Shown in pieces: positions 356-51,124 of a DNA stretch of 64,000 bases (position 1 is the first letter of the stretch; each line of letters starts with the position of its first letter). The stretch is taken from assembly GCF_900112335.1 (NCBI RefSeq), contig NZ_FOLG01000003.1:310001-374000 (forward strand). Reading direction: 5' to 3'. This stretch comes from Tropicimonas isoalkanivorans. Its GTDB lineage: Bacteria > Pseudomonadota > Alphaproteobacteria > Rhodobacterales > Rhodobacteraceae. The notes beneath the pieces were generated by a model. The model worked only from the letters and a program-made list of their open reading frames with translations. It was not told where the DNA came from and did not search any database. The position numbers were made by a program, and so were the translations under genes.

Positions 356-363
356 CACATGTG
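356..363. promoter_or_regulatory. Short palindrome CACATGTG, possible IclR operator half
   Basis: An 8-bp perfect palindrome in the divergent gap between the IclR gene (ends at 271) and the SDR operon (starts at 461). It resembles the recurring CACATATGTG element with the central two bases missing, and lies 20 bases from a better copy at 376-385. It is weak as a lone site. Confidence 0.35.
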
Positions 364-375
364 CCGAGACATCCG

Positions 376-385
376 CAGATATGTG
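376..385. promoter_or_regulatory. CACATATGTG-type operator copy (CAGATATGTG)
   Basis: One mismatch to the recurring 10-bp palindrome CACATATGTG. It lies between a divergent IclR gene and the first SDR of the long operon, 75 bases before the chosen SDR start. Similar elements precede most other transcription units here, which supports a shared operator. Confidence 0.55.
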
Positions 386-460
386 GGAAAGCGGCGACCT
401 GAGTTTCCTTACCGCCCCGCCCGGCCCTATCGCTGTGGGAACCCAACGATGGAGCGGACA

Positions 461-1222
461 ATGCGTGGACTGAAGAATCGCGTGGTGATTCTCACCGGAG
501 GCAGCAGCGGGATCGGCAAGGCAACCGCCTTGCGACTGGCCGAGGAGGGCGCGAAGGTCGCGATCTTCGACCTGAACGAGTCCGGCGCACGAGACGCAGC
601 AGCCGAGGTGCGAGACGGCACGATCAGGGCATACGGGGTCGACATCACTGATCGCGCCGCTGTCGAGGCCGCCGTAGAGCAGGTCGAAGCCGATCTCGGG
701 CCGGTCGAGCTTCTGGCCAATGTCGCGGGTTGGGACCTGCCAGCGCCGTTCGTCGAAACTGACCGAGACTTCTGGGACAAGGTCATCGCCATCAATCTTT
801 ATGGTCCGCTGATCATGCACCATGTCGTCCTGCCGCGCATGGCCGCACGAGGCTTCGGCCGGGTGGTGAACGTCTCTTCGGACGCCGGCCGCGTGGGGTC
901 GTCGGGTGAGGCGGTCTATTCCGCCTGCAAGGGCGGCATCATCGCCTTTACCAAGACGATGGCGCGCGAAATGGCGCGCAAGGGCATCACGCTCAACACC
1001 GTGGCTCCCGGTCCGACCGACACACCGCTCTTTGACGGGTTCAAGGCCGCGTCGGACGTCGGCGAGAAAATCGCAGCAGGGCTGGCCAAGGCAATCCCGC
1101 TCGGCCGGCTGGGTCAGCCGGAAGACTACCCGGGCACGCTCGCCTTCCTCCTGTCGGACGACGCCGCCTTCCTGACCGGCCAGACGATCAGCGTCTCCGG
1201 CGGCCTGACGATGCACGGTTGA
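461..1222 (+). CDS. SDR-family oxidoreductase (3-oxoacyl-ACP reductase / hydroxyacyl-CoA dehydrogenase type)
   Basis: About 253 residues, a classical short-chain dehydrogenase. A Rossmann motif TGGSSGIG lies near the N terminus, a VSS serine segment in the middle, and the catalytic YSACK (Y-x-x-x-K) follows. I chose ATG 461 because GGAG (451-454) is spaced correctly and the protein then begins MRGLKNRVV, as SDRs usually do. An in-frame ATG at 449 is an alternative. It is the first gene of an operon running to 9614, in which ACADs and hotdog hydratases make an acyl-CoA beta-oxidation role likely, for example NAD-dependent oxidation of a 3-hydroxyacyl-CoA. Substrate unknown. Confidence 0.85.
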   Translation: MRGLKNRVVILTGGSSGIGKATALRLAEEGAKVAIFDLNESGARDAAAEVRDGTIRAYGVDITDRAAVEAAVEQVEADLGPVELLANVAGWDLPAPFVETDRDFWDKVIAINLYGPLIMHHVVLPRMAARGFGRVVNVSSDAGRVGSSGEAVYSACKGGIIAFTKTMAREMARKGITLNTVAPGPTDTPLFDGFKAASDVGEKIAAGLAKAIPLGRLGQPEDYPGTLAFLLSDDAAFLTGQTISVSGGLTMHG

Positions 1223-1233
1223 GGGAGGTTTCC

Positions 1234-2142
1234 ATGGGTATTCTGGACGGAAAGACCACGATCGTTACCGGCGCAGGCGGGGGCATCGGTCGCGCGGTCG
1301 CGATGGGCCTCGCCGCCGAAGGTGCGAACGTATTGGTCAACGACATCGGCGCCAGCCTTCAGGGCGACGGCGAGGATGTGGATCTTGCGGCAAAAGTTTG
1401 CGCCGAGATCAAGGCGGCAGGCGGCCGGGCTTGCCCCTCCTCCCTTTCGATCACAGATCCGGCGGCCGGACAGGACTTGGTGACGGAAGCCATGGACACA
1501 TTCGGAGGGCTCGACCTGGTGGTCAACAACGCGGGCATCCTGCGCGACCGCATGTTCCACAAGATGAGCCATCGCGATTTTCGCGATGTGCTCGAGGTTC
1601 ATCTTTTCGGCTCGTTCTCTCTATCGCGCGCTGCCGCCTCGCAATTCCGGGAGCAGGAGAGCGGTGCCTTCGTCCACATGACCTCGACTTCCGCGCTGAT
1701 CGGCAACTTCGGCCAGGCGAACTACATGGCTGCCAAGATGGCGCTTGTCGGCATGTCGCGTGGAATCGCCCTGGACATGGCGCGCTACGGTGTGCGTTCC
1801 AACTGTATTGCCCCGTTCGCCTGGAGCCGGATGACAAGCTCGATCCCATCGGAAACGCCCGAAGAGAAACAGCGCGTCGAGCGGTTCAAGCAAATGACCC
1901 CCGAAAAGGTCGCGCCGCTGGTCGCCTATCTAGGTTCGGACCTCGCCAAGGATGTCTCTGGCCACGTGCTCAGCGTTCGCAACAACGAGATTTATGTGTT
2001 CAACCAGATGCGCCCCGCGCACACCCTGCGCCGGCCCGAGGGCTGGACCGCCCGTGCTATAGCCGAGGCGATGCCCGAAGCGGCAGACGTTCTGACGCCG
2101 CTCGAGCGCTCCTCCGACATTTTCACATGGGATCCGATCTGA
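1234..2142 (+). CDS. SDR-family 3-hydroxyacyl-CoA dehydrogenase (MFE-2 N-terminal-domain type)
   Basis: About 302 residues, longer than a classical SDR and like the (3R)-hydroxyacyl-CoA dehydrogenase domain of peroxisomal multifunctional enzyme 2. It has TGAGGGIG for NAD binding, NNAG, then the serine region and the catalytic YMAAK. The C-terminal extension past residue 250 (EGWTARAIAEAM and onward) is typical of this subfamily. The ATG at 1234 follows GGGAGG at 1223-1228. The next gene, a hydratase-2-like MaoC protein, starts inside the stop codon (TGATG), so dehydrogenase and hydratase, fused in eukaryotic MFE-2, are translationally coupled here. Inferred role: hydration and oxidation steps of one beta-oxidation cycle. 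Confidence 0.85.
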   Translation: MGILDGKTTIVTGAGGGIGRAVAMGLAAEGANVLVNDIGASLQGDGEDVDLAAKVCAEIKAAGGRACPSSLSITDPAAGQDLVTEAMDTFGGLDLVVNNAGILRDRMFHKMSHRDFRDVLEVHLFGSFSLSRAAASQFREQESGAFVHMTSTSALIGNFGQANYMAAKMALVGMSRGIALDMARYGVRSNCIAPFAWSRMTSSIPSETPEEKQRVERFKQMTPEKVAPLVAYLGSDLAKDVSGHVLSVRNNEIYVFNQMRPAHTLRRPEGWTARAIAEAMPEAADVLTPLERSSDIFTWDPI

Positions 2143-2999
2143 TGGCCATTGACTATGAAAAACTGATGTCGGTGCAGATTCCGACAATCGAGCAGACCTA
2201 TACCGAAAAGGACACGATGCTGTATGCGCTCGGGATCGGCCTCGGCAGTGACCCCGTGGACCCCGACCAGCTGCGCTACGTCTATGAGAAAGGCCTGGTC
2301 GCCGCGCCTTCGATGGCCGTGGTCCTAGCACATCCGGGCCTGTGGATCCGCGACCTCGACACCGGCATCGACTATGTGAAGGTGGTTCACGGCGAACAGG
2401 GCCTGACCCTGCACCGCCCGCTGCCCGCCGCAGCGACTGTGACCGGGGAAAGCCGCGTCACGGGCATCGTCGACAAGGGCGAGGGCCGTGGTGCAATGGT
2501 ATATTCCGAACGGGTGATCCGCGACAAGGCGACGGGCGAAAAGCTTGCCACGATCACGCAGAACTCCTTCTGCCGGGCCGATGGCGGCTATGGCGGCCCC
2601 TCGGACCCGGCGCGTAAACCGCATGCGCTGCCGGAACGCGCGCCGGACCTGTCCGTCGACCTGACGACGATCCCGCAACAGGCGCTGCTTTATCGCCTCA
2701 ACGCCGACGTGAACCCGCTCCACGCCGACCCCGAGATCGCGAGGAAGGCGGGCTTCGACCGTCCGATCCTGCACGGCCTCGCCACCTACGGCATCGCCTG
2801 CCACGCCTTGCTCAAAGCGGTTTGTGGCTACGACGCGAGTCGGCTCCGGTCTCTCGACGGTCGGTTCACCGCGCCGGTCTACCCTGGCGAGACGTTCCGA
2901 GCCGAGATCTGGCGTGACGGTGATATCGCAAGCTACCGGATCCGTGCGGTCGAACGCGACGTGGTCGCCATTTCCAATGGACGGGCGGAGATCGCCTGA
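2142..2999 (+). CDS. MaoC-family (R)-specific enoyl-CoA hydratase (MFE-2 hydratase-2 type)
   Basis: About 285 residues, a double-hotdog protein. The C-terminal half holds the hydratase-2 signature NADVNPLHADPEIARKAGF followed by HGLATYG, including the Asp and His of the catalytic motif. The N-terminal half (LRYVYEKGLVAAPSMAVVL) matches the non-catalytic hotdog of MFE-2-type hydratases. It starts with an ATG overlapping the stop of the SDR at 1234-2142, so the two are coupled and probably hydrate and oxidise the same enoyl-CoA. About 185 bases separate it from the next gene; that spacer has no convincing coding content. Confidence 0.9.
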   Translation: MAIDYEKLMSVQIPTIEQTYTEKDTMLYALGIGLGSDPVDPDQLRYVYEKGLVAAPSMAVVLAHPGLWIRDLDTGIDYVKVVHGEQGLTLHRPLPAAATVTGESRVTGIVDKGEGRGAMVYSERVIRDKATGEKLATITQNSFCRADGGYGGPSDPARKPHALPERAPDLSVDLTTIPQQALLYRLNADVNPLHADPEIARKAGFDRPILHGLATYGIACHALLKAVCGYDASRLRSLDGRFTAPVYPGETFRAEIWRDGDIASYRIRAVERDVVAISNGRAEIA

Positions 3000-3183: not shown

Positions 3184-4329
3184 ATGACCGAACTGCACCT
3201 TTCAGAAGACCAGATTCAGATCCGCGATCTTGTACGCCGGGTCGCGCGAGAAAAAGTGGCGCCGCGCGCGCAGGAAATCGACCGGACCGCTGAATATCCG
3301 CACGACATGTTCGACATGATCCGCGACCTGGGTCTGTTCGCCCTGCCGTTTCCCGAGGACTACGGCGGCACGGCGTCGATGCTTTCGGCCTGCGTCGCGG
3401 TCGAGGAACTTGCCCGGGTCTGCTACAACACGGCCTATCTTCTGGTTGTGCAATGGGTGCCGATCGGCGCAATCCTCGCCGGCGGCTCGCCGGAGCAGAA
3501 GGCACGCTGGCTGCCCGGCCTGGCCTCTGGCGAGTTGCGCGGGGCCTTGTCCCTGACTGAGCCGCAAAGCGGTTCGGACGTGGCAGGGATCAAGACCCGC
3601 GCGGTACGGGACGGCGACGACTTCCTGCTGTCTGGATCGAAGATCTGGTGCACCAACGCAGGCATGGCGGATTTCGTCCTTGTCGCCGCCAAAACCGGTG
3701 ACGCGGAGAGCCGCGGCAAGATTAACCTCTTCATCGTCGAAAAGGGCATGAAGGGTTTCGAGGTCGGTCCGAAGGAGGACAAGATGGGCGCGCGCGGCGT
3801 GCCGTCCCACGCGATCTTCCTCGACAACTGCCGGGTGCCTGCAAGCGCCATGCTGGGCGACGAGGCGACCGGCTTCCGCGTTGCGATGGCTGCACTGAAC
3901 GACAGCCGTCCGATCATCGGGGCGCGCGGCGTCGGTCTGGCGCAAGGCGCGCTCGATCACACCATCGAATTCGTGAAAGGCCGCCATGCCTTCGGGCAGA
4001 CGGTATCAGACTTTCAAGGTGTCCGCTGGATGCTCGCCGACATGGAAGTGCAGATCGAAGCCTCGCGCAATCTGGTCTACCAAGCAGCCAAGGCGGTGGA
4101 CGCCGGGGTCTCCGGCAAGCCTTTGGCGCGGCTCGCCGCCATTGCCAAATGCCATTCCACCGATACCGCGATGCGGGTCGCGACTGACGCGGTACAGCTT
4201 TTCGGTGCCTCGGGGATCTCGAACGAGTTTCCGATCAACCGATACTTCCGCGATGCCAAGGTGCTGCAGATCATCGAAGGCACCAACCAGATCCAACGCA
4301 ACATCATCTCCCGCGGCCTTCTGGACTAA
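3184..4329 (+). CDS. Acyl-CoA dehydrogenase (homotetramer type, catalytic Glu present)
   Basis: 381 residues, the usual length for a medium/short-chain ACAD. N-terminal helical domain, middle beta domain with LTEPQSGSDVAG (flavin/substrate loop), and C-terminal helices ending IEGTNQIQRNIISRGL. The glutamate of that last motif (about residue 365) is at the classical catalytic-base position. It oxidises an acyl-CoA to the 2-enoyl-CoA with FAD and passes electrons to ETF, whose subunits lie at 15721-17405. Unlike the three paired ACADs in the window it is a stand-alone enzyme. It sits between two MaoC genes in the operon. The start ATG has only a weak ribosome site. Confidence 0.92.
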   Translation: MTELHLSEDQIQIRDLVRRVAREKVAPRAQEIDRTAEYPHDMFDMIRDLGLFALPFPEDYGGTASMLSACVAVEELARVCYNTAYLLVVQWVPIGAILAGGSPEQKARWLPGLASGELRGALSLTEPQSGSDVAGIKTRAVRDGDDFLLSGSKIWCTNAGMADFVLVAAKTGDAESRGKINLFIVEKGMKGFEVGPKEDKMGARGVPSHAIFLDNCRVPASAMLGDEATGFRVAMAALNDSRPIIGARGVGLAQGALDHTIEFVKGRHAFGQTVSDFQGVRWMLADMEVQIEASRNLVYQAAKAVDAGVSGKPLARLAAIAKCHSTDTAMRVATDAVQLFGASGISNEFPINRYFRDAKVLQIIEGTNQIQRNIISRGLLD

Positions 4330-4358
4330 AGCCTGCACGAAGCGAAGGAAACGAACCA

Positions 4359-10604: not shown

Positions 10605-10614
10605 CACATACGTG
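10605..10614. promoter_or_regulatory. CACATATGTG-type operator copy (CACATACGTG)
   Basis: One mismatch to the recurring palindrome. It lies 25 bases before the start of the IclR gene and 100 bases upstream of the divergent crotonase, the usual place for an autoregulatory IclR site. Confidence 0.6.
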
Positions 10615-10639: not shown

Positions 10640-11461
10640 ATGACGGGCAAGCCCGAAGCCCCACGTTCGATCGGCCGGCTGATCGGCACGTTCGAGATCA
10701 TCGCGGTCAACGAGAACGGGCTGACGCTGGCGCAACTTGCGGAAAAACTCGAGTCGCCGAAAAGCAGCCTCCTGACCATGCTGCGGCCGCTGGTTCAGCA
10801 GGACTACCTGTCACACGAGAACGGCCGCTACTTCCTGGGACCTGCAGTGTTCGGATGGGCGTCGAAAATACTGGCCAACTCGCGTTCGGCCGAGGTGATC
10901 CGGGATTATCTCGCGCGGCTAAGGGACGCGAGTGGCGAGACGGCGATCTTCGTGACCCTAGACCGCAACAACGATGTCATCGATTACGTCGAGGTCTTCG
11001 AGAGCACCCAGGCCATAAGATACTGCGTGCAGGCCGGGGTAACACGCCCGCTTTATCCTTCGGCAGCCGGGCAGCTGATGCTGGCCTTCCAGGAGCCGGG
11101 ATGGCAATCTGCCTATCTCGACCGGACCCCGCTCAAGCGGGTGACAGAGGCAACCGTGGTTGACAGGTCGAGGATTGAAGCGCGTCTGATCGAAATCCGC
11201 CGGTCCGGCATTTCATTTTCCGTTGATGGCGCGGTCAGCGGTGCGGCGGGCTTGGCGGCGCCGGTTTTTCGCGGGGGAGGGACGTTGGCCGGATGCCTGC
11301 TGCTCGGCGCGCCGTCGAACCGCGCGGTGAGGAACCGCGCGGCCCTTGAAAAGACCCTCGGACGGATCGTCCGCGAGACGTCCATAGCCTTGGGGTGCCA
11401 GGACTACGACACCCTTATACGGGAGAAGTCGGCGGAAATTGAGGCTTCCGCTTCTCGGTGA
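10640..11461 (+). CDS. IclR-family transcriptional regulator
   Basis: 273 residues, full length. N-terminal winged helix-turn-helix (SIGRLIGTFEIIAVNENGL, then LAQLAEKLESPKSSLLTML, wing HENGRYFLGP), followed by the GAF-like effector domain with AGVTRPLYPSAAGQLML and a C-terminal GAAGLAAPVF segment. IclR proteins bind palindromes near their own promoters, and one copy of the recurring CACATATGTG element lies 25 bases upstream. Its 3' end overlaps the convergent crotonase gene by 47 bases. It is one of only two IclR genes seen here (the other is cut off at position 1), so it is a leading candidate to control the scattered sites. Confidence 0.93.
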   Translation: MTGKPEAPRSIGRLIGTFEIIAVNENGLTLAQLAEKLESPKSSLLTMLRPLVQQDYLSHENGRYFLGPAVFGWASKILANSRSAEVIRDYLARLRDASGETAIFVTLDRNNDVIDYVEVFESTQAIRYCVQAGVTRPLYPSAAGQLMLAFQEPGWQSAYLDRTPLKRVTEATVVDRSRIEARLIEIRRSGISFSVDGAVSGAAGLAAPVFRGGGTLAGCLLLGAPSNRAVRNRAALEKTLGRIVRETSIALGCQDYDTLIREKSAEIEASASR

Positions 11462-12333: not shown

Positions 12334-12343
12334 CACATATGTG
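12334..12343. promoter_or_regulatory. Perfect CACATATGTG operator copy
   Basis: Exact 10-bp palindrome in the 244-base divergent gap between the crotonase starting at 12221 and the ACAD operon starting at 12466. The rest of that gap shows no coding content. Confidence 0.65.
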
Positions 12344-12465: not shown

Positions 12466-13686
12466 ATGGAACTGAGCTTCTCCCCCGACGAACTGGCCTT
12501 CCGCGCCGAGGTGCGGGCGTTTATCCGCGACAACCTGCCCGAGGACATTCGTGCCTTTGCTCACAGGTCCGGCTACTACAAGGCCGACCAGGTGCGTCGC
12601 TGGCAGAAGATTCTGGACAGCCGGGGCTGGGCAGCCGGGCACTGGCCGGTCGAATTCGGCGGGCCGGGCTGGACGGCCGTGCAGCGCTATATCTTCAACG
12701 AGGAGCTTTTGCGCGCGCCCGCGCCAGAGCCGCTGTCCTTCAACATCAACATGGTCGGCCCGGTCATCTACACCTTCGGGACCGAAGAGCAGAAATCCCG
12801 ATTTCTACCGAAGATCCGAAGCCTCGACTGGTGGTTTTGCCAGGGGTTCTCGGAACCCGGTGCGGGGTCCGATCTTGCCGCGCTGAAGACCTCTGCCGTG
12901 ACGGACGGCGACAGCTACGTGATCAACGGCCAGAAGATCTGGACCTCCACCGCCCAGCACGCCGATTGGATGTTCGCCCTGGTGCGCACGGATCCGAAAG
13001 CGCCGAAGAAGCAGATGGGCATCTCGTTCCTGCTGATCGACATGAACACGCCCGGGATCGACGTGCGCCCAATCGTCACCATCGACGGCGAGCACCACAC
13101 CAACGAGGTCTTCTTCGACAACGTCCGGGTGCCGGCGGAAAACCTGATCGGCGAAGAGAACAAGGGCTGGGACTACGCCAAGTTCCTGCTTGGCAGCGAA
13201 CGGACGGGCATCGCCCGCGTGGGCCTGTCCAAGGGACGGATGGACCGCGCGCTGGAGCTTGCCCGTGTGGCGCCTGTGTACGGCGGCGCACGGCTGATCG
13301 AAGATCCCGGCTTCCGGCAGCGCGCCTTGAAACTCCAGGTGGAACTAAAGGCATTGGAGATCTCGGCGTTGCGCATCATTGACCGTCAGCGCCGCAATCC
13401 GTCGGACAAGCCCGACGCGGCCTCCTCGATCCTCAAGCTTCGCGGCGCCGAAACCCAGCAAGCCAGCGCCGAATTGCTTGCCGACGCGGCCGGACCCTCT
13501 GCCGCGCCGTTTTTCGACTTCCGCGAAATGTTCTCTGACAACGAGGTGCCTCAAGGCGTTGCCAGGGCCGACGGCGCCATGCGCGTGCATTTCGCCGCCC
13601 GCCCGGCAACCATCTACGGAGGCGCGAGCGAGGTGCAGAAGAACATCATAGCCAAGGCAATCCTTGGATTTAAGGACAAGCCATGA
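12466..13686 (+). CDS. Acyl-CoA dehydrogenase, long catalytic-type subunit of a heteromeric pair
   Basis: 406 residues. It has FSEPGAGSDLAALKTSAV, NGQKIWTST and the C-terminal YGGASEVQKNIIAKA. The classical catalytic Glu is Gly, while the conserved Glu at about residue 245 (LLGSERTG) matches the position used by heteromeric ACADs. AAGGA stands 8 bases before the ATG. The partner subunit starts in the stop codon (ATGA at 13683). First gene of a seven-gene operon that also makes the ETF electron acceptor. Confidence 0.92.
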   Translation: MELSFSPDELAFRAEVRAFIRDNLPEDIRAFAHRSGYYKADQVRRWQKILDSRGWAAGHWPVEFGGPGWTAVQRYIFNEELLRAPAPEPLSFNINMVGPVIYTFGTEEQKSRFLPKIRSLDWWFCQGFSEPGAGSDLAALKTSAVTDGDSYVINGQKIWTSTAQHADWMFALVRTDPKAPKKQMGISFLLIDMNTPGIDVRPIVTIDGEHHTNEVFFDNVRVPAENLIGEENKGWDYAKFLLGSERTGIARVGLSKGRMDRALELARVAPVYGGARLIEDPGFRQRALKLQVELKALEISALRIIDRQRRNPSDKPDAASSILKLRGAETQQASAELLADAAGPSAAPFFDFREMFSDNEVPQGVARADGAMRVHFAARPATIYGGASEVQKNIIAKAILGFKDKP

Positions 13687-14837
13687 ACTTTGAATACTCC
13701 GACGAACAGGCCCTGCTGTCCGACGCCGTGACCCGTTTCGTGTCCGACCGTTACGGCCTTGCCGGGGTGCGATCCGCGGCAGAGACCAAGGACGGCGTGA
13801 CCGCCGCGAACTGGCAGGGCATGGCAGACATGGGGCTTCTGGGAATGCCCTTCCCCGAGCAGGCAGGCGGCTTCGGCGGCGGCCCGGTCGAAACGCAGAT
13901 CGTCATGGAGGCCTTTGGCCGCGGGCACGTGCTCGATCCATGGGTGGGTGGCGTGCTCTTGCCCGGCGCGCTGCTCTCGGCGCTGGACCCCGCGCGGCTG
14001 ACCGAGCTGGTTCCGGATGTGGCGACCGGCGACCTTGTCCTTGCGCTGGCACATGAAGAGGACGGCGCGCGCTACGTCACCGCCCAAGTGGTGACGAACG
14101 CCCGGCGTTGTGGCAACGGGTGGCGGCTGAGCGGGCGCAAGGTCAACGTGCTGGCCGGAGCTGCCGCAAACCGCCTCTTCGTCACCGCCCGGACTGCCGG
14201 AGCGGAGGCGGACGAGGACGGGATCTCGGTCTTCGAAGTGCCGGTGGACGCGCCCGGCCTGTCGCGGACCGCCTACCGCCAATACGACGGCCAGACCGTC
14301 GCCGCGCTGACACTGGACGACGTGTCCCTGCCCGATGGGGCACTCGTCGGCGACGAGGGCGAAGCCTTCTCTGCGTTGGAGCTGGCCCTAGACACCGCCA
14401 CCGCGGCGATCTGCGCCGAGGCGGTCGGGGCGACCGAGACAATGCTTCACGCCACCGTGGACTATCTCAAGACGCGCCAGCAGTTCGGCGGCCCACTGTC
14501 ACGCTTCCAGGTCCTGCAACACCGCTGTGCCGAGATGTACGTCGCCGTCGAGCAGGCCCGCTCCATGGCGCTTTACGCAGCGGTCAGCCTCGGACTGGAG
14601 GACCGGGACGAACGGCGCCGCGCCATTTCCGCCGCCAAGGTGCAATGCGCCGAGAGTGCGCGCTTTGCCGGACAAAACGCGGTCCAGATGCATGGCGGGA
14701 TCGGTGTCACGGACGAACTGCTGGTCGGCCATCTGTTCCGCCGAACGACGATGATCGAACGGCAGTTCGGCGATGCCGGACATCATCTCGCCCGCCTCGA
14801 CCGGCTGGGCGGCCTCGACAATCAAATGGGAGAATAG
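13683..14837 (+). CDS. Acyl-CoA dehydrogenase, short partner subunit of a heteromeric pair
   Basis: 384 residues. ACAD fold; the C-terminal motif QMHGGIGVTDELLVGHLFRR replaces the catalytic EGT-x-QIQ segment, as in the short subunits at 6079 and 48924. The middle domain is divergent and lacks the usual SEP-x-AGSD loop, as expected for a subunit that completes the FAD site but does not supply the base. It overlaps the long subunit gene by 4 bases. The three short subunits resemble each other in the KTRQQFG / GTRKQFG helix and end about the same distance after HGG. Confidence 0.88.
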   Translation: MNFEYSDEQALLSDAVTRFVSDRYGLAGVRSAAETKDGVTAANWQGMADMGLLGMPFPEQAGGFGGGPVETQIVMEAFGRGHVLDPWVGGVLLPGALLSALDPARLTELVPDVATGDLVLALAHEEDGARYVTAQVVTNARRCGNGWRLSGRKVNVLAGAAANRLFVTARTAGAEADEDGISVFEVPVDAPGLSRTAYRQYDGQTVAALTLDDVSLPDGALVGDEGEAFSALELALDTATAAICAEAVGATETMLHATVDYLKTRQQFGGPLSRFQVLQHRCAEMYVAVEQARSMALYAAVSLGLEDRDERRRAISAAKVQCAESARFAGQNAVQMHGGIGVTDELLVGHLFRRTTMIERQFGDAGHHLARLDRLGGLDNQMGE

Positions 14838-29675: not shown

Positions 29676-29685
29676 AACATATGTG
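29676..29685. promoter_or_regulatory. CACATATGTG-type operator copy (AACATATGTG)
   Basis: One mismatch to the recurring palindrome. It starts right after the EamA stop and about 115 bases before the dead aldo-keto reductase, so it would have served that gene's promoter. Confidence 0.5.
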
Positions 29686-29798
29686 GTATCTGCGTTCGCA
29701 GGTCGGAACAGCATCGCGACCCCGCCCCCCCGGTGCCCTAAGTTGGCGCGGAACGTTCGTGCCTTTGTGCATCACGCGCGAGCGAATTGGGAGGCTCA

Positions 29799-30410
29799 AT
29801 CAAGTACGCACGTATGGGAAATACCGGGCTGATAGGGTCTAGTATGACGCTGGGCTCGATGACCTTCGGATCGGGCACGGGCGCCTACGGGGCGATGTGT
29901 ACCGTCGGACAGGATGCAGCGGACGATCTGGTGGCGCGCGCCTTCGACGCCGGTGTGAATTGCTTCAACGCCGCCTCGACTTACGGTGGGGGCGAATCCG
30001 AAGAAATCCTCGGTCGCGCCCTCGGCAAGCGTCGCGGCGACGCCGTGCTGATGAGCAAGGTGGGATTTCGCCTGACGAAGGACGTCCTCGACGGCGGCAC
30101 TTCGGGCCGGTCGATCATCAAGACTTGCGACGACTGCCTGCGTACGCTCGGCACAGACTGGCTTGACGTCTTCGAGGTGCATCGCGTCGATCCCCACACA
30201 CCGATGGACGAAATCCTGGCCGCGCTCGACCTGCTCGTGCAGCAGGGCAAGTGGCGCTACACAGCCTTTGCCAACTGGCCCGCATGGATGGTGGGGCGCG
30301 CTAACGCGCTGCAACAGGAGTGCCGACAGGCGCCGTTCAGGGCCACGGAGCTGCTGTACACGCTGATCAACCGCGATATCGAGGAAAGCCATATCGACCT
30401 TCTGGCGGCC
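29799..30410 (+). pseudogene. Truncated aldo-keto reductase (C-terminal third deleted)
   Basis: About 204 codons of an aldo-keto reductase are readable: KYARMGNTGLIGSSMTLGS, YGGGESEEILGRALGKRR, MSKVGFR (the active-site Lys), DVFEVHRVDP (His) and LLYTLINRDIEE. The catalytic DTA-x-x-Y region reads FNAASTY, so the Asp is Asn. GGGAGG stands correctly before position 29799, but the codon there is ATC, not ATG. Homology stops abruptly near 30405, where SDR sequence begins in another frame. A deletion that joined two genes, plus loss of the start codon, explains this. Once probably a dehydrogenase acting on an aldehyde or sugar-like substrate. Confidence 0.82.
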
Positions 30411-30411
30411 G

Positions 30412-30840
30412 CGGCTCCTCCAGTCCATCAACCTGCTGGCCCCCTTCGTGGTCTGCCGCGAGGCACTGCGGCACATGCCCGATGCGAATTGCTTCATCGT
30501 CAACGTCGCCTCGGCCAGCGGATTGATGCCTTTGGGCGCCAACGGCGCCTATCCGGCCGCCAAGGCAGGCCTAATCATAATGTCCAAGGTGCTGGCCTAT
30601 GAACTGGCTCACCGGGTCCGCGTCAACGCGGTCTGCCCCGGGCCGGTGGAAACGCCGCTGCTGATGGATGCCCGCCCGGACCGTGAGGCATTTGCCGCCC
30701 AAGTCGGCAAAGCCTACGCCATGAAGCGCATCCCCCGCCCCGACGAAATCGCCAGCGCGATCTGTTTCCTCGCCTCGGACGATGCATCCTTCATTACCGG
30801 CACGGCGCTGGCCGTGGACGGGGGCCGTGTCTACCATTGA
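30412..30840 (+). pseudogene. SDR remnant (C-terminal half only)
   Basis: From about 30415 the sequence reads LLQSINLLAPFVVCREAL, then FIVNVASASGL, the catalytic YPAAK, NAVCPGPVETPLL, and the end ITGTALAVDGGRVYH: the second half of a classical SDR, including its active site. The NAD-binding N-terminal half is missing and no start signal remains. The frame differs from the aldo-keto reductase fused upstream, so no hybrid protein is made. Its closest relative in the window is the SDR at 19213. A GTG-like start at 30448 could only produce a non-functional fragment. Confidence 0.82.
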
Positions 30841-30865
30841 CCCGACCCCTGCCCTGCCCCCCGGC

Positions 30866-31991
30866 CTAATCTGCCGAGAGCTGTGCGTAGATTTCGGATC
30901 TCAACGCCTCCCGATATGCCTCCCACTGCGCTTCGTCCCAGTCGTCCTCGCCGATCTCGGCGACAATCGCCCGCCAATTCTTGATCACCTCGCGATGTGC
31001 GTCCGCGATGGCCTGCGCATCCGCGACACCGCGCTCGGTCGCCTGCGCGACAAGACCCGCAGCTTCGCCGTTACGGAACCCCTTCAACGCCTCGCTCAGC
31101 GCCGGATCCCGTGCAACGAATGCCACACCTTCGGACTCAGTTTGCGTCTTCGCGCCTGCGGCCCTGCCATTCGTCACCTACTGGTAGTCTGCGATCGCGC
31201 CGGGCGCCACATCCAGCCAGATCTGCCGCTCTACACGGGTGAACCCCCTCCAGAGGTCGAAATTGACGCCGACCTGCCCGATCGACTGGAAGTTCCCCGG
31301 CGTGACCTCCGTCACGCTGTCCAGCACCTCTCCAAGCCGTAATGGCAACAACTGGCCCGGATCGAGGAGCACGCAATCGAGTTGAGCACGTTGCAGTGCC
31401 TCGTAGATCTTATTGAATGCAACGTTCACGGGCGACGCGCCCAGTTCAGCAGCCAGTTGTCCCATGGACCCCGATCCGCGCATCCGCTTGCCGGCAAAGT
31501 CGGCCTGCGTCGTCACCTAATTCCCTTTGCACATCAGATTGTAGGGCGCCGTCGAGACCGCGAAGAGGATCTCGATATTGTCCTGCTCGGCCTCCTCCTG
31601 GCAGGCCGCACAATCGATCAGGATCGATTTGGTCATCGCGGCCGCCCCGGCCCTGGGATCGGTGCCGAAGACGATCAGATCACCGATCAGGGTCAGAACC
31701 GGCAGCTCAGACGGCGTGTAGTTGAAGGTCCGCGTCGCCGCGTCCACCGCACCGGATGACACGGCCGACAATGTCGTGGTCGGCGACGCGAGCACCCCGC
31801 CGGGAACGACCTTCACCGTCCGCGTCACCCCCCGTCGCTTCGGTGATCGTCTTGAAGTAGCGGTCTGGCAAATCGACGTCTTCTGATGTGGGAGATGTGA
31901 AGTGACTGTAGACGAGCTCTTGTGCGAGTGTCGGCTGCGCCACCGGAATGGTCAGCCCGATGAGTGCCGATCGAATGGCAGACGTTCTCAT
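30866..31991 (-). pseudogene. dctP: Dead TRAP solute-binding protein (DctP)
   Basis: Reading leftwards from ATG 31991: a signal peptide (IRSALIGLTIPVAQPTLAQE), then a frameshift near 31825. From there the DctP body is in one frame with TAG stops at 31519-31517 and 31180-31178. Recognisable parts are FNYTPSELPVLTLIGDL, the CAACQ cysteine pair, STAPYNLMCKG, GQLAAELGASPVN, YEALQRAQLDCVLL and the end DDWDEAQWEAYREAL, which matches the intact DctP at 41079. Three lesions show it is inactive. The start overlaps the stop of the isomerase gene (31988) by 4 bases, so it was in an operon with it. Confidence 0.87.
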
Positions 31992-32890
31992 TTCAGGTTT
32001 CCTCCCATAGTGATTTCATGTCCTCCGGCTCGGGCCGCAGCTGTGTCGGCCCTCCGCAGCGCCTCCAGCGCCGCCTCTTCGCCCGCGCGGCCGGACCCGC
32101 GCGGGAAGAACTCGCATTCGACAAGGGCGCCCGGCCGCAGCCGGGCAAAGGCCGCCAGGATCTTGGCGAAGTCCAGGGTGCCCGTACCCGGTTCGGCGCG
32201 TTCCGGAAAGTCCGCGATCTGCAGGATCGCGACGCGTTCCGAGACCTTGTGAAGGGCTTCCAGAACGTCACCGTCCATCGCGGCGACATGGTGGGTGTCG
32301 AAAATCAAACCGATCTCCGGGCCTGCAGTTCGCGCGACCTCGTCCGCGGCATGAATGTGGTTCAACAGCATGCCAGAGACGCGCTTCGCACTGACGCTTT
32401 CGACGCAGAGCCGCAGACCGGCGGATCGAATCTCGGACACAAGCCCGGCCAGCCGATCTGACATCAGGGTAAGCTGGTCGGCCACGGGGCAATCGTCCAG
32501 CATCACGCTGGTCACCGTCAACGCTTCGGCCCTGACCCTTTCGGCAGCCTCGGCGCAAGCCAATACCTCGGCGCGGATGAGCTCGGTGGCCTCCTGCCCG
32601 CCCTGGCCCCAGGCGAGCCTCTGCAAAGGCGGCGGGCTGACCACGAAAGACCCGAAGCGCAGCCCGTGTTCCGCCAGCGCCCTTCCCATACGGGCCTGGA
32701 CCGCGGGCGGCCTGAGGCGCAGCATGTTGTCGGCGATGCCAGCAAGGCCCATCCCGGCCACATGATCGATTTGCGCAATCGGATCGGTGCTGCCGACCGT
32801 CTCGCGAAACATCGGCTCGTCGAGGCTGCGGATGCCCAGGGTTGCCGCGAACGGCACGGTCCAGTCATGAGGTGTACCTGTTCGCAACAT
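31988..32890 (-). CDS. TIM-barrel sugar-phosphate isomerase/epimerase-like protein
   Basis: 300 residues, xylose-isomerase-like TIM barrel (AP-endonuclease 2 superfamily). Likely metal ligands occur in order: a Glu in LCVESVSAKR, then DTHHVAAMDGD (Asp and His), then LVECEFFPRGSG (Glu), similar to hydroxypyruvate isomerase and IolE/IolI relatives. GGAGGAAAG precedes the ATG at 32890. It lies between two broken dctP genes on the same strand and seems intact, so it is the survivor of that operon. A GntR-type site lies 11 bases upstream of the start. The substrate is probably a small hydroxy- or keto-acid or sugar acid. Confidence 0.78.
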   Translation of the reverse strand: MLRTGTPHDWTVPFAATLGIRSLDEPMFRETVGSTDPIAQIDHVAGMGLAGIADNMLRLRPPAVQARMGRALAEHGLRFGSFVVSPPPLQRLAWGQGGQEATELIRAEVLACAEAAERVRAEALTVTSVMLDDCPVADQLTLMSDRLAGLVSEIRSAGLRLCVESVSAKRVSGMLLNHIHAADEVARTAGPEIGLIFDTHHVAAMDGDVLEALHKVSERVAILQIADFPERAEPGTGTLDFAKILAAFARLRPGALVECEFFPRGSGRAGEEAALEALRRADTAAARAGGHEITMGGNLK

Positions 32891-32900
32891 CGCTTTCCTC

Positions 32901-32915
32901 CATATTGCATGTAAC
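32901..32915. promoter_or_regulatory. GntR-type operator copy (CATATTGCATGTAAC)
   Basis: 14 of 15 bases match the site upstream of the UGSC operon (51216-51230), and part of it matches the site at the GntR gene (56390-56402). It lies just upstream of the isomerase ribosome site, downstream of the frameshifted dctP. It links this locus to the GntR gene 23 kb away. Confidence 0.6.
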
Positions 32916-32970
32916 TTTGCGGCAAACGGAGATGGGGCGGCATGTCGTCCGCCCCTTCCTTCGTGGCGCT

Positions 32971-34082
32971 TCAAGCCAGGTTCGTGAAGATCTCGTCTCG
33001 CAATGCGGCCTGGTAGGCGTCCCACTGCGCTTCGCTCCACGGCTGCCCACCGATGTCGACCACGATGGCTTCCCACTTCGTCGTTGCTTTGGCCACGGCA
33101 TCGCGGACTGTCTCCGGGTCTTTCACACCACGTCCCGAAGCGACGCCGAGCAGGCGGTCGTCCTCGACCGACTGTGCCGACTGCACGGCATCAACCAACT
33201 CGGGCGTCGGCGAGTTCATCGTCGTCCCCCGGCCCGGCCCCGCATCGCGCGCCGCGGCCACGCGCAGGACGGACGCCTCTTCGTAGCCGCAGATGGCCTG
33301 CACGCCGCTTTCATAGAAGGCGGCCATCTCGGCGTCCGAGAGCGAGCCCCAGACATCGGCGTTCACGGCAAGGAACCCGACGGTGAACGTGCCCATCGGC
33401 AGTTCGGTCACGTTTTTTACCACATCCCACAGCCCTGCCCCTTCGAGATTGTCCATCGACAGGAGGGTGCAATCCAACTGGCCGCGCTGAAGGCCCTCGT
33501 ACACGTCCGTCAGAGGCGTGTTCACGGGCACAGCGCCGAGGTTACCCACCAGAAGCGCCATGCCGCCGGTGGCTCGCACCTTCAATCCTTTGAGATCCTC
33601 AGGCGCAACCACTACAGCCTTGTTGTACAACAGTGCACAGGTCGGCGTGGCGGTGTTGAGCAGTACAGTGATGTTGTGCTGTTGCATCTCGTCCTGGCAT
33701 TGCGGGCAGTCGAGCAGCATGACTTCGGTCTTGGCTGCAGCTGTCACCAGCGGGTCATTGCCGCTGCGGTCGCCCAGTAGCGTTGGGGTCGGCAGGTCCG
33801 AGGGCATGTAGTTGTAGATCAGCGTTCCCGCGTCCACCGCGCCGCTCGCAGCGAGGATAGTACGGTTTCCGCCCCGGCAAGCGCACCGCCCCAGCCCAAC
33901 TCGAAGGTCAGGCTCCCGCCGGTCGCATCGGTCATTGGGTCAAAGAAACCTTCCTGCGCCTGGCTTGTCGTGCTGGCGCTCGACGCATGGGTTGAGAACA
34001 CCAGCTGGCGCGTCTCGGCTGTCGCGACAGTCGAAACTGCCGACAATGCAAATGCAAAAAGAAATGGGATCTGACGGTCCAC
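32971..34082 (-). pseudogene. dctP: Frameshifted TRAP solute-binding protein (DctP)
   Basis: The first 80 or so codons from GTG 34082 (with GGGGAGGAGG upstream) encode a signal peptide ending VATAETRQ and the N-terminal lobe up to GGALAGAETVLSS. Near 33855 the frame shifts, and the rest (SGAVDAGTLIYNYMPSDLP through PWSEAQWDAYQAALRDE) continues in another frame to 32971. The body has the family cysteine pair CPQCQ but lacks the third Cys seen in the paralogues (its aligned region is TPTCALLYNK). It has one clean frameshift and no internal stops, so it is either a very young pseudogene or a sequencing error. It diverges from the MaoC operon at 34290. Confidence 0.75.
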
Positions 34083-34166: not shown

Positions 34167-34180
34167 CGCACATATGTGCG
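34167..34180. promoter_or_regulatory. Perfect 14-bp operator palindrome CGCACATATGTGCG
   Basis: The longest exact form of the recurring element. It lies in the divergent gap between dctP (34082) and the MaoC operon (34290), 46 bases centre to centre from a second copy at 34213. Confidence 0.7.
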
Positions 34181-34212: not shown

Positions 34213-34226
34213 CGCACATCTGTGCG
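34213..34226. promoter_or_regulatory. Second operator palindrome CGCACATCTGTGCG
   Basis: Same arms as the site at 34167, with one central mismatch. Two sites between divergent genes suggest one per promoter or cooperative binding. Confidence 0.65.
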
Positions 34227-34289: not shown

Positions 34290-34724
34290 ATGACAGGCAT
34301 GACCATCGAAAGCTTTGCGCGCGATCTGGAGACGCGTTTCGGACACAAATTCGTCGAAACCATCGAATCGGGGCGCGTGCGCGACTATCTGGCAGCGTTG
34401 GACGCGACCGCGCCCGATGCGGACCGGCCCGAACCCGGCACCCCCGTGCCACCCCTGTTTCTGCTCACGCTGGCCCGCCAGCGCCGGCCGCACCTCGCAC
34501 AATCGACAGGCGGTGGCGGCGTGAACGCGGGCGACACCTTTCGTTTTCTTGCCGAAGCGAGGGTCGGGGACCGCATCACCGTGACGTGCACTGTGACCGA
34601 GATCGTCGAGAAGACCGGCAAACGGGACATGCTGCGCGCGACGGTCCACTTCGACTATGTCAACCAGCATGGCACGAAGATCGCCGAACGGGACAACACC
34701 CTGATGCGGTGGGCGACGGCATGA
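34290..34724 (+). CDS. MaoC-like hydratase subunit (FAS1-like dehydratase domain)
   Basis: 144 residues, one hotdog domain of the non-catalytic type, with RVRDYLAALDATAPDADRP near the N terminus and TFRFLAEARVGDRITVTC / FDYVNQHGTKIAERDNTLM in the sheet. GGGAGG is placed for the ATG at 34290; ATG 34299 is an alternative. The next gene (34721) is a second short hotdog overlapping by 4 bases. Such split pairs form heteromeric enoyl-CoA hydratases, known from steroid side-chain degradation (ChsH1-ChsH2). I infer that the pair hydrates a bulky enoyl-CoA. Confidence 0.82.
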   Translation: MTGMTIESFARDLETRFGHKFVETIESGRVRDYLAALDATAPDADRPEPGTPVPPLFLLTLARQRRPHLAQSTGGGGVNAGDTFRFLAEARVGDRITVTCTVTEIVEKTGKRDMLRATVHFDYVNQHGTKIAERDNTLMRWATA

Positions 34725-39246: not shown

Positions 39247-39256
39247 CACATATGTG
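39247..39256. promoter_or_regulatory. Perfect CACATATGTG operator copy
   Basis: Exact palindrome in the divergent gap between the Nudix gene (starts at 39169) and the carboxyltransferase (starts at 39336). Confidence 0.65.
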
Positions 39257-42301: not shown

Positions 42302-42311
42302 CACATGCGTG
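42302..42311. promoter_or_regulatory. Variant operator copy (CACATGCGTG)
   Basis: Two central mismatches to CACATATGTG, arms kept. It lies about 95 bases upstream of the intact dctP at 42206 and just after the dead dehydrogenase gene. Confidence 0.4.
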
Positions 42312-45612: not shown

Positions 45613-45622
45613 CGCATATGTG
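45613..45622. promoter_or_regulatory. CACATATGTG-type operator copy (CGCATATGTG)
   Basis: One mismatch to the recurring palindrome, in the 207-base divergent gap between the thiolase (45498) and the SDR (45706). The rest of the gap shows nothing else recognisable. Confidence 0.55.
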
Positions 45623-47612: not shown

Positions 47613-47622
47613 CACATCCGTG
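47613..47622. promoter_or_regulatory. Variant operator copy (CACATCCGTG)
   Basis: CAC and GTG arms kept with two central mismatches. It lies in the leader between the CoA-transferase (47572) and the ACAD pair (47703), suggesting an internal promoter. Confidence 0.35.
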
Positions 47623-47702: not shown

Positions 47703-48911
47703 GTGAGCGCGACCACACCAGACGAAATCGGGGATTTCAGGCAGGAGGTACGCGACTTCCTGAAAGAGAATCTGCCTGACGACATGGCACACCGCGGCCG
47801 CAATGGCTTTCTGGCCGCCCGCGAGGACTCGCTGGGCTGGCAGCAAATCCTTGCCAAAAAGGGCTGGTCGGTGCCGCACTGGCCAGAGGAACACGGCGGT
47901 CCGGGCTGGAGCGCGATGCAGCGATATGTCTTCGACGAGGAATGCTATCTGGCGGGCGCCCCAACCATCAACATTGGCGGCGTCGGACTGGTCGCGCCGG
48001 TGATACAGGCCTTCGGCACCCAAGAGCAGAAGGATCGATTCCTGCCGCCGATCCGCAATGGCGAGGTGTTCTGGATTCAGGGGTTTTCAGAACCCTCCGC
48101 CGGGTCCGATCTTGCCTCGCTGCGCACCACGGCGGTTCGGCAAGGCGACGAGTATGTCATCAACGGTCAGAAGATCTGGACCTCGCACGGGCTATTCGGC
48201 GACTGGAACTTCATGCTGGCCCGCACCGACCCGGAGGCGAAGAAGCAGGCCGGGATCTCGTTTTTCCTGATCGACGTCAAGACGCCGGGCCTGACGATCC
48301 GACCAATAGAGAGCCTCGAAGGCTCACACCACCTTACCGAGGTCTTTTACGACGATGTGCGCGTGCCGGTTTCGAACCGCGTCGGCGAAGAGAACAAGGG
48401 CTGGGACTACACCAAATACTTGCTGTTCAACGAACGCGCCTTTTACGGCGCGGAGGCGCCGTCGCTGAAGCGTTACCTTGCCAAGATCAAGACCTATGCC
48501 CGTCGCGAGACTGTGGATGGCCGGCCACTTATCGAAAACTGCACCTTCGCCACGCGTCTGGCCGAACTGGAGCTGGAGGTCATGGCGGTGGACATGACCG
48601 TGAGCCGCGTGATCGCCCACGGCCTGACTGAGCGCAACGGCGGCAATGCCGTCGGCTCGATTCTGAAAGTCCGCGGAACGGAACTGGCTCAGAAGCTGAC
48701 CGATCTTCTGGTCGAGACGATCGGCGACTATGGGGCCTATGCCTATCCCGACACCAACGAGGAACCCGAGATGCGGGACATGCCACATGCGGGGCCGAAC
48801 TATGCGCCGGGCCTCTTTGCCGAGCTGATCTACCGGCGTGCTGCTTCGATCTACGGTGGCGCCAACGAAGTGCAGCGGAACATCATCGCCAAGACCCTGT
48901 TCCGATTCTGA
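47703..48911 (+). CDS. Acyl-CoA dehydrogenase, long catalytic-type subunit of a heteromeric pair
   Basis: 402 residues. FSEPSAGSDLASLRTTAV, NGQKIWTSHG and the C-terminal YGGANEVQRNIIAKT with Gly at the classical Glu position. The inferred base is Glu at about 244 (LLFNERAF), as in the other two long subunits. GTG start at 47703 gives a normal ACAD N terminus; an in-frame ATG at 47592 would add 37 Arg/Ala-rich residues and cover the operator-like site, so I disfavour it. The partner is at 48924. Confidence 0.88.
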   Translation: MSATTPDEIGDFRQEVRDFLKENLPDDMAHRGRNGFLAAREDSLGWQQILAKKGWSVPHWPEEHGGPGWSAMQRYVFDEECYLAGAPTINIGGVGLVAPVIQAFGTQEQKDRFLPPIRNGEVFWIQGFSEPSAGSDLASLRTTAVRQGDEYVINGQKIWTSHGLFGDWNFMLARTDPEAKKQAGISFFLIDVKTPGLTIRPIESLEGSHHLTEVFYDDVRVPVSNRVGEENKGWDYTKYLLFNERAFYGAEAPSLKRYLAKIKTYARRETVDGRPLIENCTFATRLAELELEVMAVDMTVSRVIAHGLTERNGGNAVGSILKVRGTELAQKLTDLLVETIGDYGAYAYPDTNEEPEMRDMPHAGPNYAPGLFAELIYRRAASIYGGANEVQRNIIAKTLFRF

Positions 48912-48923
48912 GGAAGACATCCG

Positions 48924-50060
48924 ATGTTCGAGGAAGCCAGCCCCGACCTCACCGACGAGCAGCGCATGATCCTGGACGGCGCAAACCGCTTCGTTACCGA
49001 GATTTGCCCGTTCGAGAAACGCCGCGAGGCCACAAAAGCCGGTGTCACGCTGGACCGCACGGTCTGGGGGCAGATGGCCGAACTGGGCTGGTTCGGCCTT
49101 GGCCTGTCCGAAGAGGCGGGCGGCTTCGGCGGCACGCTTGAGGACGTTGCACTGATCGCCGAGACGCTGGGCCGGGGACAGGTCTTGGAACCGTTCACGA
49201 TGTGCGCGGTCTTTCCGGCGCGCCTGCTGGTCGGAATTGGCGGTCAGACCGACCTGATCGAAAAGATCGTCTCCGGGGAAAAGCTGGTCGCAGTTGCCCA
49301 TTCGGAGCCGGATGCGCGGGGCGATGTGACCCGCATCGCCGTGACCGCGTCCCCCGAAGGCGGCGGATTCCGGCTGGACGGCCTCAAGTCTCTGGTGGTG
49401 GGCGGGGATCACGCCGATGTCCTTCTGGTGACCGCCCGCCTGCCGGACGGCAGCCTGGGCCTGTTCCGCCTCGCGCGCCACAGCGAGAGTGTCACCACGG
49501 AAGGGACCCGGCTAGCCGACTGGACGTCGGGCCTCGACCTGCGGTTCACCTCGGCCATCGCCGAACGGATCGCCTCGGGAGATGCCATGGCGCATGCGCT
49601 TGCGGCGGCGCGGGACGAGGCGGTGACCATGCTGTGCGCCGAATGCGTGGGCGCAATGGACGGCACGATCCAGGTCACCGCGCCCTACATCAGCGAGCGG
49701 CGGCAGTTCGGCGTGCCCCTTTCATCCTTCCAGGCCTTGCAGCATCGGATGGCGGACATGGCGGCCGACCTGACCATCGCCCGGTCCGCGGTTTTGCGGG
49801 CGCTCTCTTTCCTTGGGGCGCCTTCGGCTGAGCGCGCCGCGCAGGTGGCCGGGTGCAAGGCGCTGGTGCAGCGGTTGGGCCGGTGGACGACGCAGCAGGG
49901 CATCCAGCTGCATGGCGGCTATGGCATCACCGAAGAATACCAGGTCGGCCAATACCACAAGCGGCTGCTTGTCACCGATGCGATGTTCGGCAGCCGGGAC
50001 GTCAACCTTTCCCGTTACACCGGGCACATGCTGTCCCGCATGATGGAAGCTGCGCAGTGA
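48924..50060 (+). CDS. Acyl-CoA dehydrogenase, short partner subunit of a heteromeric pair
   Basis: 378 residues. It has the short-subunit ending QLHGGYGITEEYQVGQYHKR and a divergent middle domain without the SEP-x-AGSD loop, matching the genes at 6079 and 13683. GAGGAAG precedes the ATG, 12 bases after the long subunit. The flavoprotein gene that follows starts inside its stop codon (GTGA). Confidence 0.88.
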   Translation: MFEEASPDLTDEQRMILDGANRFVTEICPFEKRREATKAGVTLDRTVWGQMAELGWFGLGLSEEAGGFGGTLEDVALIAETLGRGQVLEPFTMCAVFPARLLVGIGGQTDLIEKIVSGEKLVAVAHSEPDARGDVTRIAVTASPEGGGFRLDGLKSLVVGGDHADVLLVTARLPDGSLGLFRLARHSESVTTEGTRLADWTSGLDLRFTSAIAERIASGDAMAHALAAARDEAVTMLCAECVGAMDGTIQVTAPYISERRQFGVPLSSFQALQHRMADMAADLTIARSAVLRALSFLGAPSAERAAQVAGCKALVQRLGRWTTQQGIQLHGGYGITEEYQVGQYHKRLLVTDAMFGSRDVNLSRYTGHMLSRMMEAAQ

Positions 50061-51031
50061 GGACCCGCATTACCGAGCTGCTCGGCATCCGCCACCCCGT
50101 CGTGCAGGGCGGGATGCAATGGGTCGGGCGGGCCGAGCTGGCTGCTGCGGTGTCCAACGCCGGAGGGCTGGGGATCGTCACCGCCCTGACCCAGCCCACG
50201 CCGGAAGATTTGTCAGCCGAGATTACGCGTTGCCGCAGCATGACCGACAAGCCCTTCGGCGTGAACCTGACGATCCTGCCGACGTTGCGGCAGACCCCCT
50301 ATGACGACTACCTCGCCGCGGCGCTGGATGCAGGCGTCACCGTGATCGAGACAGCGGGGCGCAGTCCCGAGCCCTACATGGAACGAATCAAGGCCGCAGG
50401 CGCCAAGGTGATCCACAAGTGCACCTCGGTGCGCCACGCGCTGACGGCCGAAAGAATTGGAGTGGACGCAGTCAGCGTGGACGGATTCGAATGCGCCGGG
50501 CACCCGGGCGAGGACGACGTGCCGAACCTCATCCTTCTGCCGCGCGCCGCGGACGGCCTGTCGATACCGTTTCTGGCTTCGGGCGGCATCGCGGACGGCC
50601 GCGGCCTTGCCGCGGCGCTGGTGCTGGGCGCCGATGGCGTGAACATGGGCACGCGCTTCATGGCGACGGCCGAGGCGCCGATCCACGAGAATGTGAAGCG
50701 CCGCATCGTCGAGGCGAGCGAACTGGACACGGTGCACCTTCTGCGCCCCCTGCGGAACACGGCACGATATTTCAGGAATTCTGTGGCCGAGGAAGTGCGC
50801 GACGTCGAGAAGGCCCGCGGCCCGGATTTGGCCATCGGCGACGTGGCACCGCTCATCGCGGGGGCACGGGGACGGAAGGTCTACGAGGGCGGCGATCTCG
50901 ATGCCGGTGTCTGGACGGCCGGCCTTGCCGCCGGCTTGATCCACGACATTCCGACCTGCGAGGTCCTGATTGAGCGGATGGTCTCGGAAGCCGAGGCAAT
51001 TCTACGCGCGCGGTTCGCCCTTTTCGAGTGA
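50057..51031 (+). CDS. Nitronate monooxygenase-like FMN protein
   Basis: 324 residues, paralogue of the protein at 43310: TRITELLGIRHPVVQGGM, NAGGLGIVTALTQ, PFGVNLTILPT, HKCTSVRHALTAERIGVDAV, the His region FECAGHPGEDD, GGIADGRGLAAALVLGA and GTRFMATAEAPIHE. GTG start overlapping the ACAD stop. It sits downstream of an ACAD pair, whereas its paralogue follows the thiolase, which suggests a role tied to acyl-CoA chemistry rather than chance. Confidence 0.86.
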   Translation: MRTRITELLGIRHPVVQGGMQWVGRAELAAAVSNAGGLGIVTALTQPTPEDLSAEITRCRSMTDKPFGVNLTILPTLRQTPYDDYLAAALDAGVTVIETAGRSPEPYMERIKAAGAKVIHKCTSVRHALTAERIGVDAVSVDGFECAGHPGEDDVPNLILLPRAADGLSIPFLASGGIADGRGLAAALVLGADGVNMGTRFMATAEAPIHENVKRRIVEASELDTVHLLRPLRNTARYFRNSVAEEVRDVEKARGPDLAIGDVAPLIAGARGRKVYEGGDLDAGVWTAGLAAGLIHDIPTCEVLIERMVSEAEAILRARFALFE

Positions 51032-51055
51032 AGGTTGCCGGGAGCCCGGCACCTT
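51031..51055 (+). terminator. Hairpin at end of the ACAD-flavoprotein operon
   Basis: Stem AAGGTTGCCGGG with CCCGGCACCTT (one bulged T) directly at the stop codon, loop of 2 bases. No T run follows, so it may be a terminator or only an mRNA 3' stabiliser. Confidence 0.4.
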
Positions 51056-51112
51056 GCGTCGGCGGCCGAGGAAGGCGCAACGAACATCTGCCGCGACGGG
51101 ACAGCGGCAACT

Positions 51113-51124
51113 GCGCATATGCGC
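51113..51124. promoter_or_regulatory. Palindrome GCGCATATGCGC, variant operator
   Basis: Perfect 12-bp palindrome with the CATATG core and symmetric A-to-G/T-to-C changes from CACATATGTG. It lies about 95 bases upstream of the GntR-type site in the same gap, before the UGSC operon. Confidence 0.4.

Follow-up and report, generated by a model that had tools for sequence, protein, structure and literature searches.

The operators of IclR-family regulators have been surveyed by Suvorova and Gelfand (2021, PMC8222616), and statements on published operators made below refer to that survey. The group-1 motif is given there as GKTYCRYW3-4RYGRAMC, and that of its even-length subgroup as NGTYCRAW4TYGRACN; control of one or two operons adjacent to the regulator's own gene is described as general for the family, the regulogs comprising 1 to 55 clusters of orthologous groups (COGs). 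PcaU, PobR and PcaR belong to the same family as the regulator considered here and likewise have catabolic targets, but they respond to other substrates (aromatic acids) and their sites have TCGATWATCG-type cores (Table 1 of PMC8222616). Here we describe a ten-base palindrome, CACATATGTG, that marks gene gaps across a 75-kb degradation island of Tropicimonas isoalkanivorans (genome of 4.98 Mb in 51 contigs). The stretch analysed, hereafter the window, comprises 64 kb (C48:310001-374000). We propose that this palindrome is probably the operator of IclR-2, an IclR-family protein whose gene crosses the left end of the window, and that it marks a single predicted regulon extending over the island. 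No description of this regulon was found in the literature, the search being limited to open-licence papers.

The palindrome corresponds exactly to the CRYW4RYG core of the group-1 operators (PMC8222616). Tandem sites are also about two helical turns apart in both cases (22 nt for the pair 354/376, compared with 18-22 nt in the survey), and genes of short-chain dehydrogenases/reductases (SDRs; COG1028), frequent in the regulons of the even-length subgroup, are among the predicted targets here too. In contrast, the outer GTY/RAC flanks (GKTY ... RAMC) are not matched here, since no flanking column exceeds 0.41 bit in 53 collected sites; these sites drew on 7 of the 38 loci with relatives of IclR-1 (the second IclR-family protein of the window) and were selected by the core itself, so that they provide no second test of it. 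Some distant IclR-2 relatives have sites of the TTTCACAT..TGAAA type. A further difference is that the even-length subgroup has A/T in the core where the present sites have C/G. Finally, unlike the one or two adjacent operons general for the family (PMC8222616), the present sites lie in eight gaps, and the regulon looks wider than usual.

Distribution of the palindrome in the genome

Three of the four exact copies of CACATATGTG in the genome are located in the window. At one mismatch or fewer there are 41 sites genome-wide, nine of them in the window, for which the density in the rest of the genome predicts 0.42 (Poisson P 7e-10); the reversed-letter control gives seven sites in the whole genome. 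The last 79 kb of C48 carry 11 sites of this class, of which 10 are intergenic, while gaps make up 9% of this stretch (binomial P 4e-10). The sole coding site of this island end (C48:374259) lies inside a small reading frame that was taken as real, and the remaining 300 kb of C48 hold a single site, which is coding. In a set of 320 palindromes with equal G+C content, CACATATGTG ranks first in the island gaps with 10 occurrences, followed by ACACATGTGT, which overlaps it in form, with four (mean 0.18). Outside C48 there are 29 sites, and the 21 examined comprise 17 coding and four intergenic ones. The preliminary description, which proposed one regulon with an IclR protein as its controller, called for such an uneven density, and it was indeed observed: island sites are mostly intergenic (10/11), and those examined outside C48 are mostly coding (17/21). 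This genome-wide picture was obtained by a mismatch search together with the examined stretches, in place of a matrix scan. Being both intergenic and common to operons of related function, the island sites have the properties of an IclR regulon.

The signal resides in the sites with no or one mismatch. These occupy eight island gaps, six of which separate intact divergent genes, and they extend beyond the left end of the window (C48:305651, between divergent genes). As a class, the weaker sites lack significance, because the two-mismatch count of the window is unexceptional (16, compared with a mean of 11.71 for window shuffles, 16 of 100 of which score as high).

Conservation in related islands

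Among 295 genomes of the family, 8 have a homologue of IclR-1 and 11 have one of IclR-2; the two occur together in the genome under study and in G061, G044, G153 and G189. In 12-20-kb loci around IclR-1 in the latter four genomes all 11 sites are intergenic. A scan of species genomes yielded 38 loci with IclR-1 relatives; one or more intergenic sites occur in 31 of them and three exact ones in 20, with a single occurrence of the reversed control across the same loci. Gaps of related islands thus contain the sites in both roseobacters and rhizobia. In rhizobial islands 3/4 and 5/6 sites are intergenic; synteny with the core of the present island is seen in two such islands, which keep a one-mismatch site in the gap that matches site 12334. 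Other loci of IclR-1 homologues within the family have no site (L064, L065) or one coding site each (L066, L067).

These data bear on the idea that the palindrome is read by a regulator encoded elsewhere or by a general architectural protein. The few intergenic copies that lie beyond the island (four among the 21 sites examined) would leave some room for such a protein, but the concentration of the sites in the island, their recurrence in islands with IclR-2 and their match to the published IclR consensus (PMC8222616) speak against it, and sites of an architectural protein would be expected genome-wide; we therefore regard this explanation as very improbable. For further IclR genes of this genome (L173, L174, L176), the 600 bp examined contain no site with one mismatch or fewer; L174 has one with two mismatches.

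Which IclR protein is the controller?

A palindrome copy beside each of the two IclR genes had been reported in the preliminary description, and this holds true: the pair 354/376 adjoins IclR-2 and site 10605 adjoins IclR-1. The two proteins share 23% identity. IclR-2 has an N-terminal HTH_IclR domain (45.3 bits, cut-off 22) and a C-terminal effector domain, IclR_C (43.4 bits, cut-off 24; profile positions 16-131 of 174), and its gene is divergent from the first SDR/acyl-CoA dehydrogenase operon of the window. A regulator of the Pca regulon (8eju) was the second match in a sequence search of the PDB.

We searched for IclR-2 in 22 genomes of the 38 IclR-1 loci. All 15 genomes that have IclR-2 carry an intergenic site near IclR-1, whereas none of the seven without IclR-2 does, one of them (L117) having a coding copy; two loci of the latter set (L095, L120) are shorter ones. 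No palindrome form is visibly common to the regions near IclR-1 in these seven genomes. Moreover, G817 has IclR-2 (387.5 bits) and an exact intergenic CCGCACATATGTGCGG without an orthologue of IclR-1 (best match 110.7 bits, compared with 279.8 to 455.8 in G678, G921, G967 and G951). In G820, where the best IclR-1 match reaches 98.8 bits, there are three IclR-2-like genes and two intergenic one-mismatch sites. These three genes lie within 19 kb of each other among acyl-CoA-type genes (C11 1-20000, L200).

The palindrome was also sought ahead of 27 distant IclR-2 relatives, gathered by protein similarity, with 150 bp of upstream sequence taken for each; near-identical relatives and near orthologues were left out of all such upstream tests, and L161, the frame of which had been misread, out of this set. 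Eleven of the 27 regions contain a sequence within two mismatches of CACATATGTG, which places it first among 320 palindromes, the next best reaching 6 and the mean being 1.25. In the initial set of 21 relatives, one of which was later dropped, there were nine.

IclR-2 is favoured over IclR-1 because the motif goes with IclR-2 and its distant subfamily and is found in none of the seven genomes without IclR-2. The preliminary description had offered the IclR protein encoded at 10640 (IclR-1) for a binding test, and our comparison of genomes makes it the less likely controller. That IclR-1 controls the sites, IclR-2 being a passenger, is a reading favoured by the position of site 10605 and by the strong sites that adjoin IclR-1 in roseobacters, but the lack of intergenic sites nearby in 7/7 IclR-1 genomes without IclR-2 and the site of G817, present without IclR-1, render it quite unlikely. 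Binding of the same operators by both proteins, whether in competition or within a mixed, two-inducer system, would account for two IclR genes that each have adjoining sites and co-occur in islands; it also seems unlikely, given their low identity and the absence of the motif with IclR-1 alone.

The helix residues appear to point in the same direction. Mapping the helix positions through TtgV, we tentatively take IclR-2 to have Ser and Ala at positions 30 and 33, and IclR-1 to have Ser and Thr there, with Lys at position 28. Even-length sites have been linked to Ser at position 30 together with either Ala or Asn at position 33, and Lys at position 28 to odd-length TGT-11-ACA sites (PMC8222616). 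The residues of IclR-2 thus appear to agree with even-length sites such as the present ones, while the Lys of IclR-1, on our own mapping, counts against this protein as the controller. Considered together, the enrichment of the sites, their intergenic placement, their recurrence in relatives and their co-occurrence with IclR-2 give good support to the earlier proposal of a single regulon under an IclR protein, wide in extent and of known IclR kind; that IclR-2 itself binds CACATATGTG is what we infer from the same comparisons.

Several observations weigh against IclR-2. On the tree of IclR-1, which comprises 26 of the 38 loci, that of the window and three outside rows, the label of IclR-2 and motif needs two changes, and because two changes suffice, the 15 and seven genomes do not represent 22 independent cases; one of the changes falls between two sister rows, Bradyrhizobium (L093), which has both, and Mesorhizobium (L095), which has neither. 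The seven genomes that lack IclR-2 come from pseudomonads, Burkholderiales-type bacteria, one Mesorhizobium and one member of the Acetobacteraceae, and their gene neighbourhoods differ. G817 is the sole genome in which IclR-2 and an exact site are present while IclR-1 is absent; its assembly consists of 140 contigs, and the contig with the site also has one match to the reversed control. The 80-kb stretches of three related genomes contain coding copies as well (4/9 sites in G044, 3/7 in G153 and 3/7 in G189). The upstream test was conceived after upstream sites had already been seen, and several of the relatives used in it are closely related to each other; among the seven relatives added later, two have a site within two mismatches, a score common to six palindromes, and none has one within one mismatch. 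Upstream of 11 IclR-1 homologues without IclR-2 there were no matches (0/11), but this zero is weak evidence, because the average palindrome scores only 0.53 there. The island also encodes a GntR (56432) and a LysR (59319) regulator, while the comparison of controllers covered the two IclR proteins.

The main puzzle for the assignment of CACATATGTG to IclR-2 is, however, a different element. In roseobacter orthologues of IclR-2 (aligned L070-L160) TTGACA is followed by a conserved three-box element, GGAATGNCATTCATATAATCGCAC, which resembles PcaU-type sites. Most near orthologues carry this element ahead of their own gene instead, and the nearer orthologues have no exact site directly ahead of it. 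The three-box element may be IclR-2's own operator. As regards autoregulation, the tandem sites are upstream of the IclR-2 promoter in the present genome, whereas most orthologues show the other element. Another palindrome found ahead of IclR-2 orthologues, GAATGNCATTC, was considered as a rival operator and rejected, since no island stretch has more than one intergenic copy of it, so that it is not repeated through the islands.

Predicted mode of control

A dimer of IclR-2 would read the two CACAT half-sites of the palindrome, tandem pairs such as 354/376 could hold a tetramer, and up to about 14 transcription units might in this way be controlled together. The predicted targets are genes of acyl-CoA dehydrogenases, SDRs, hydratases, electron transfer flavoprotein (ETF), thiolase and carboxylase, and that of IclR-1, which is probably a target rather than the controller, as site 10605 is centred 30.5 bp ahead of its start codon.

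IclR proteins can act as activators, repressors or both. Our guess, which we hold weakly, is that IclR-2 acts mainly as an activator upon inducer binding. It draws on the seemingly weak promoters of the targets and on the distances between site centre and flanking start codon, of which eight of 22 fall within 80.5 to 88.5 bp (both members of the pair 354/376 being measured to the same two genes). Among the supposed targets, the best promoter-like matches have 6 to 9 of 12 consensus bases, compared with 11/12 for IclR-2, a difference that, without a control of random gaps, is suggestive only; the TTGACA of the IclR-2 promoter recurs at the same location in 20 of the 23 IclR-2 genes aligned. Steadily made IclR-2 would then activate weak promoters once it has bound its inducer, either an acid or an acyl-CoA from the pathway. 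Repression by IclR-2 is a further possibility, as members of the family may act either way.

For a large catabolic island, related forms of which occur in many roseobacters and some rhizobia, these analyses provide a candidate operator together with a named regulator, and they correct the view of which of two neighbouring IclR proteins is the likely controller. The palindrome may be used to define the gene set of the pathway. More tentatively, IclR-2 and its palindrome might form a portable control module: the operator is kept in roseobacter and rhizobial islands whose genes have been partly exchanged, and new catabolic operons could join the system through the acquisition of a single ten-base site, placed at a nearly constant distance from the start codon, a scenario that we consider possible rather than likely.

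Sites and gene content of the island

All sites listed in the preliminary description are present, the leftmost one being placed at 354 (Table 1). The extended palindromes at 34167 and 34213 were given as CGCACA-N4-TGTGCG; their actual form is CGCACA-N2-TGTGCG. The site at 29676 fronts broken genes and no clean operon.

Table 1. Palindrome sites and IclR-related features of the window. Positions are window coordinates unless marked C48; mismatches (MM) are counted against CACATATGTG; genes were called with a simple in-house caller, so start codons are approximate. ACAD, acyl-CoA dehydrogenase.
Feature	Position	Strand	MM	Context
Site CACACATGTG	354..363		1	Tandem with 376, centres 22 nt apart
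Site CAGATATGTG	376..385		1	Gap between IclR-2 (-) and SDR/ACAD operon (+)
Site CACATACGTG	10605..10614		1	Ahead of IclR-1, centre 30.5 bp 5' of its start codon
Site CACATATGTG	12334..12343		0	Gap between enoyl-CoA hydratase gene (-) and ACAD/ACAD/SDR/ETF genes (+)
Site AACATATGTG	29676..29685		1	Upstream of broken-gene stretch
Site CACATATGTG within CGCACATATGTGCG	34169..34178		0	Ahead of MaoC/FAS1-dehydratase-type gene at 34290
Site CACATCTGTG within CGCACATCTGTGCG	34215..34224		1	46 nt from site 34169
Site CACATATGTG	39247..39256		0	Gap between NUDIX (-) and acyl-CoA carboxylase-type (+) genes
Weak site CACATGCGTG	42302..42311		2	Ahead of dctP (-)
Site CGCATATGTG	45613..45622		1	Gap between thiolase (-) and SDR (+) genes
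Weak site CACATCCGTG	47613..47622		2	Ahead of ACAD pair at 47703
Weak site CGCATATGCG	51114..51123		2	Upstream of UGSC-family gene
IclR-2, proposed controller	C48:309396-310271	-		5' part is window 1..271, runs out leftward
IclR-2 near-consensus promoter	304..331	-		TTGACA-N16-CATAAT, 11/12 consensus bases
Palindrome GAATGACGTTC in IclR-2 leader	290..300			Part of three-box element in roseobacter orthologues
IclR-1, second IclR-family regulator	10640..11461	+		HTH_IclR and IclR_C domains

The island encodes acyl-CoA dehydrogenases, ETF, CoA-transferases, TRAP transport, SDRs, hydratases, thiolase, and carboxylase-type and acyl-CoA synthetase-type enzymes. Several of these resemble enzymes of cyclohexanecarboxylate or pimeloyl-CoA metabolism by NCBIfam models, in all cases below the curated cut-offs: the best models are BadH for 461-1222, pimC for 12466-13686 and pimD for 13683-14837, while for 3184-4329 acryloyl-CoA reductase comes first and cyclohexane-1-carbonyl-CoA dehydrogenase second. 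The predicted pathway would degrade an organic acid, perhaps an alicyclic one, in the form of its CoA thioester.

In the broken-gene stretch (29787-33837) an incomplete match to an aldo/keto reductase adjoins a piece resembling an SDR and pieces resembling DctP on the minus strand; the SDR piece was judged by eye, as was the resemblance of 30866-31828 to DctP. A UGSC family domain is present in two proteins (51283-51846 and 60303-62045). Elsewhere in the genome, the only exact copy of the palindrome outside C48 (C15:859291; L020 10291) lies in a gap between two genes that, by eye, are envelope/polysaccharide-like, and a one-mismatch copy (C14:25323; L018 10323) separates a gene of a LacI-type-like regulator from an ABC-transporter-like operon, again as judged by eye.

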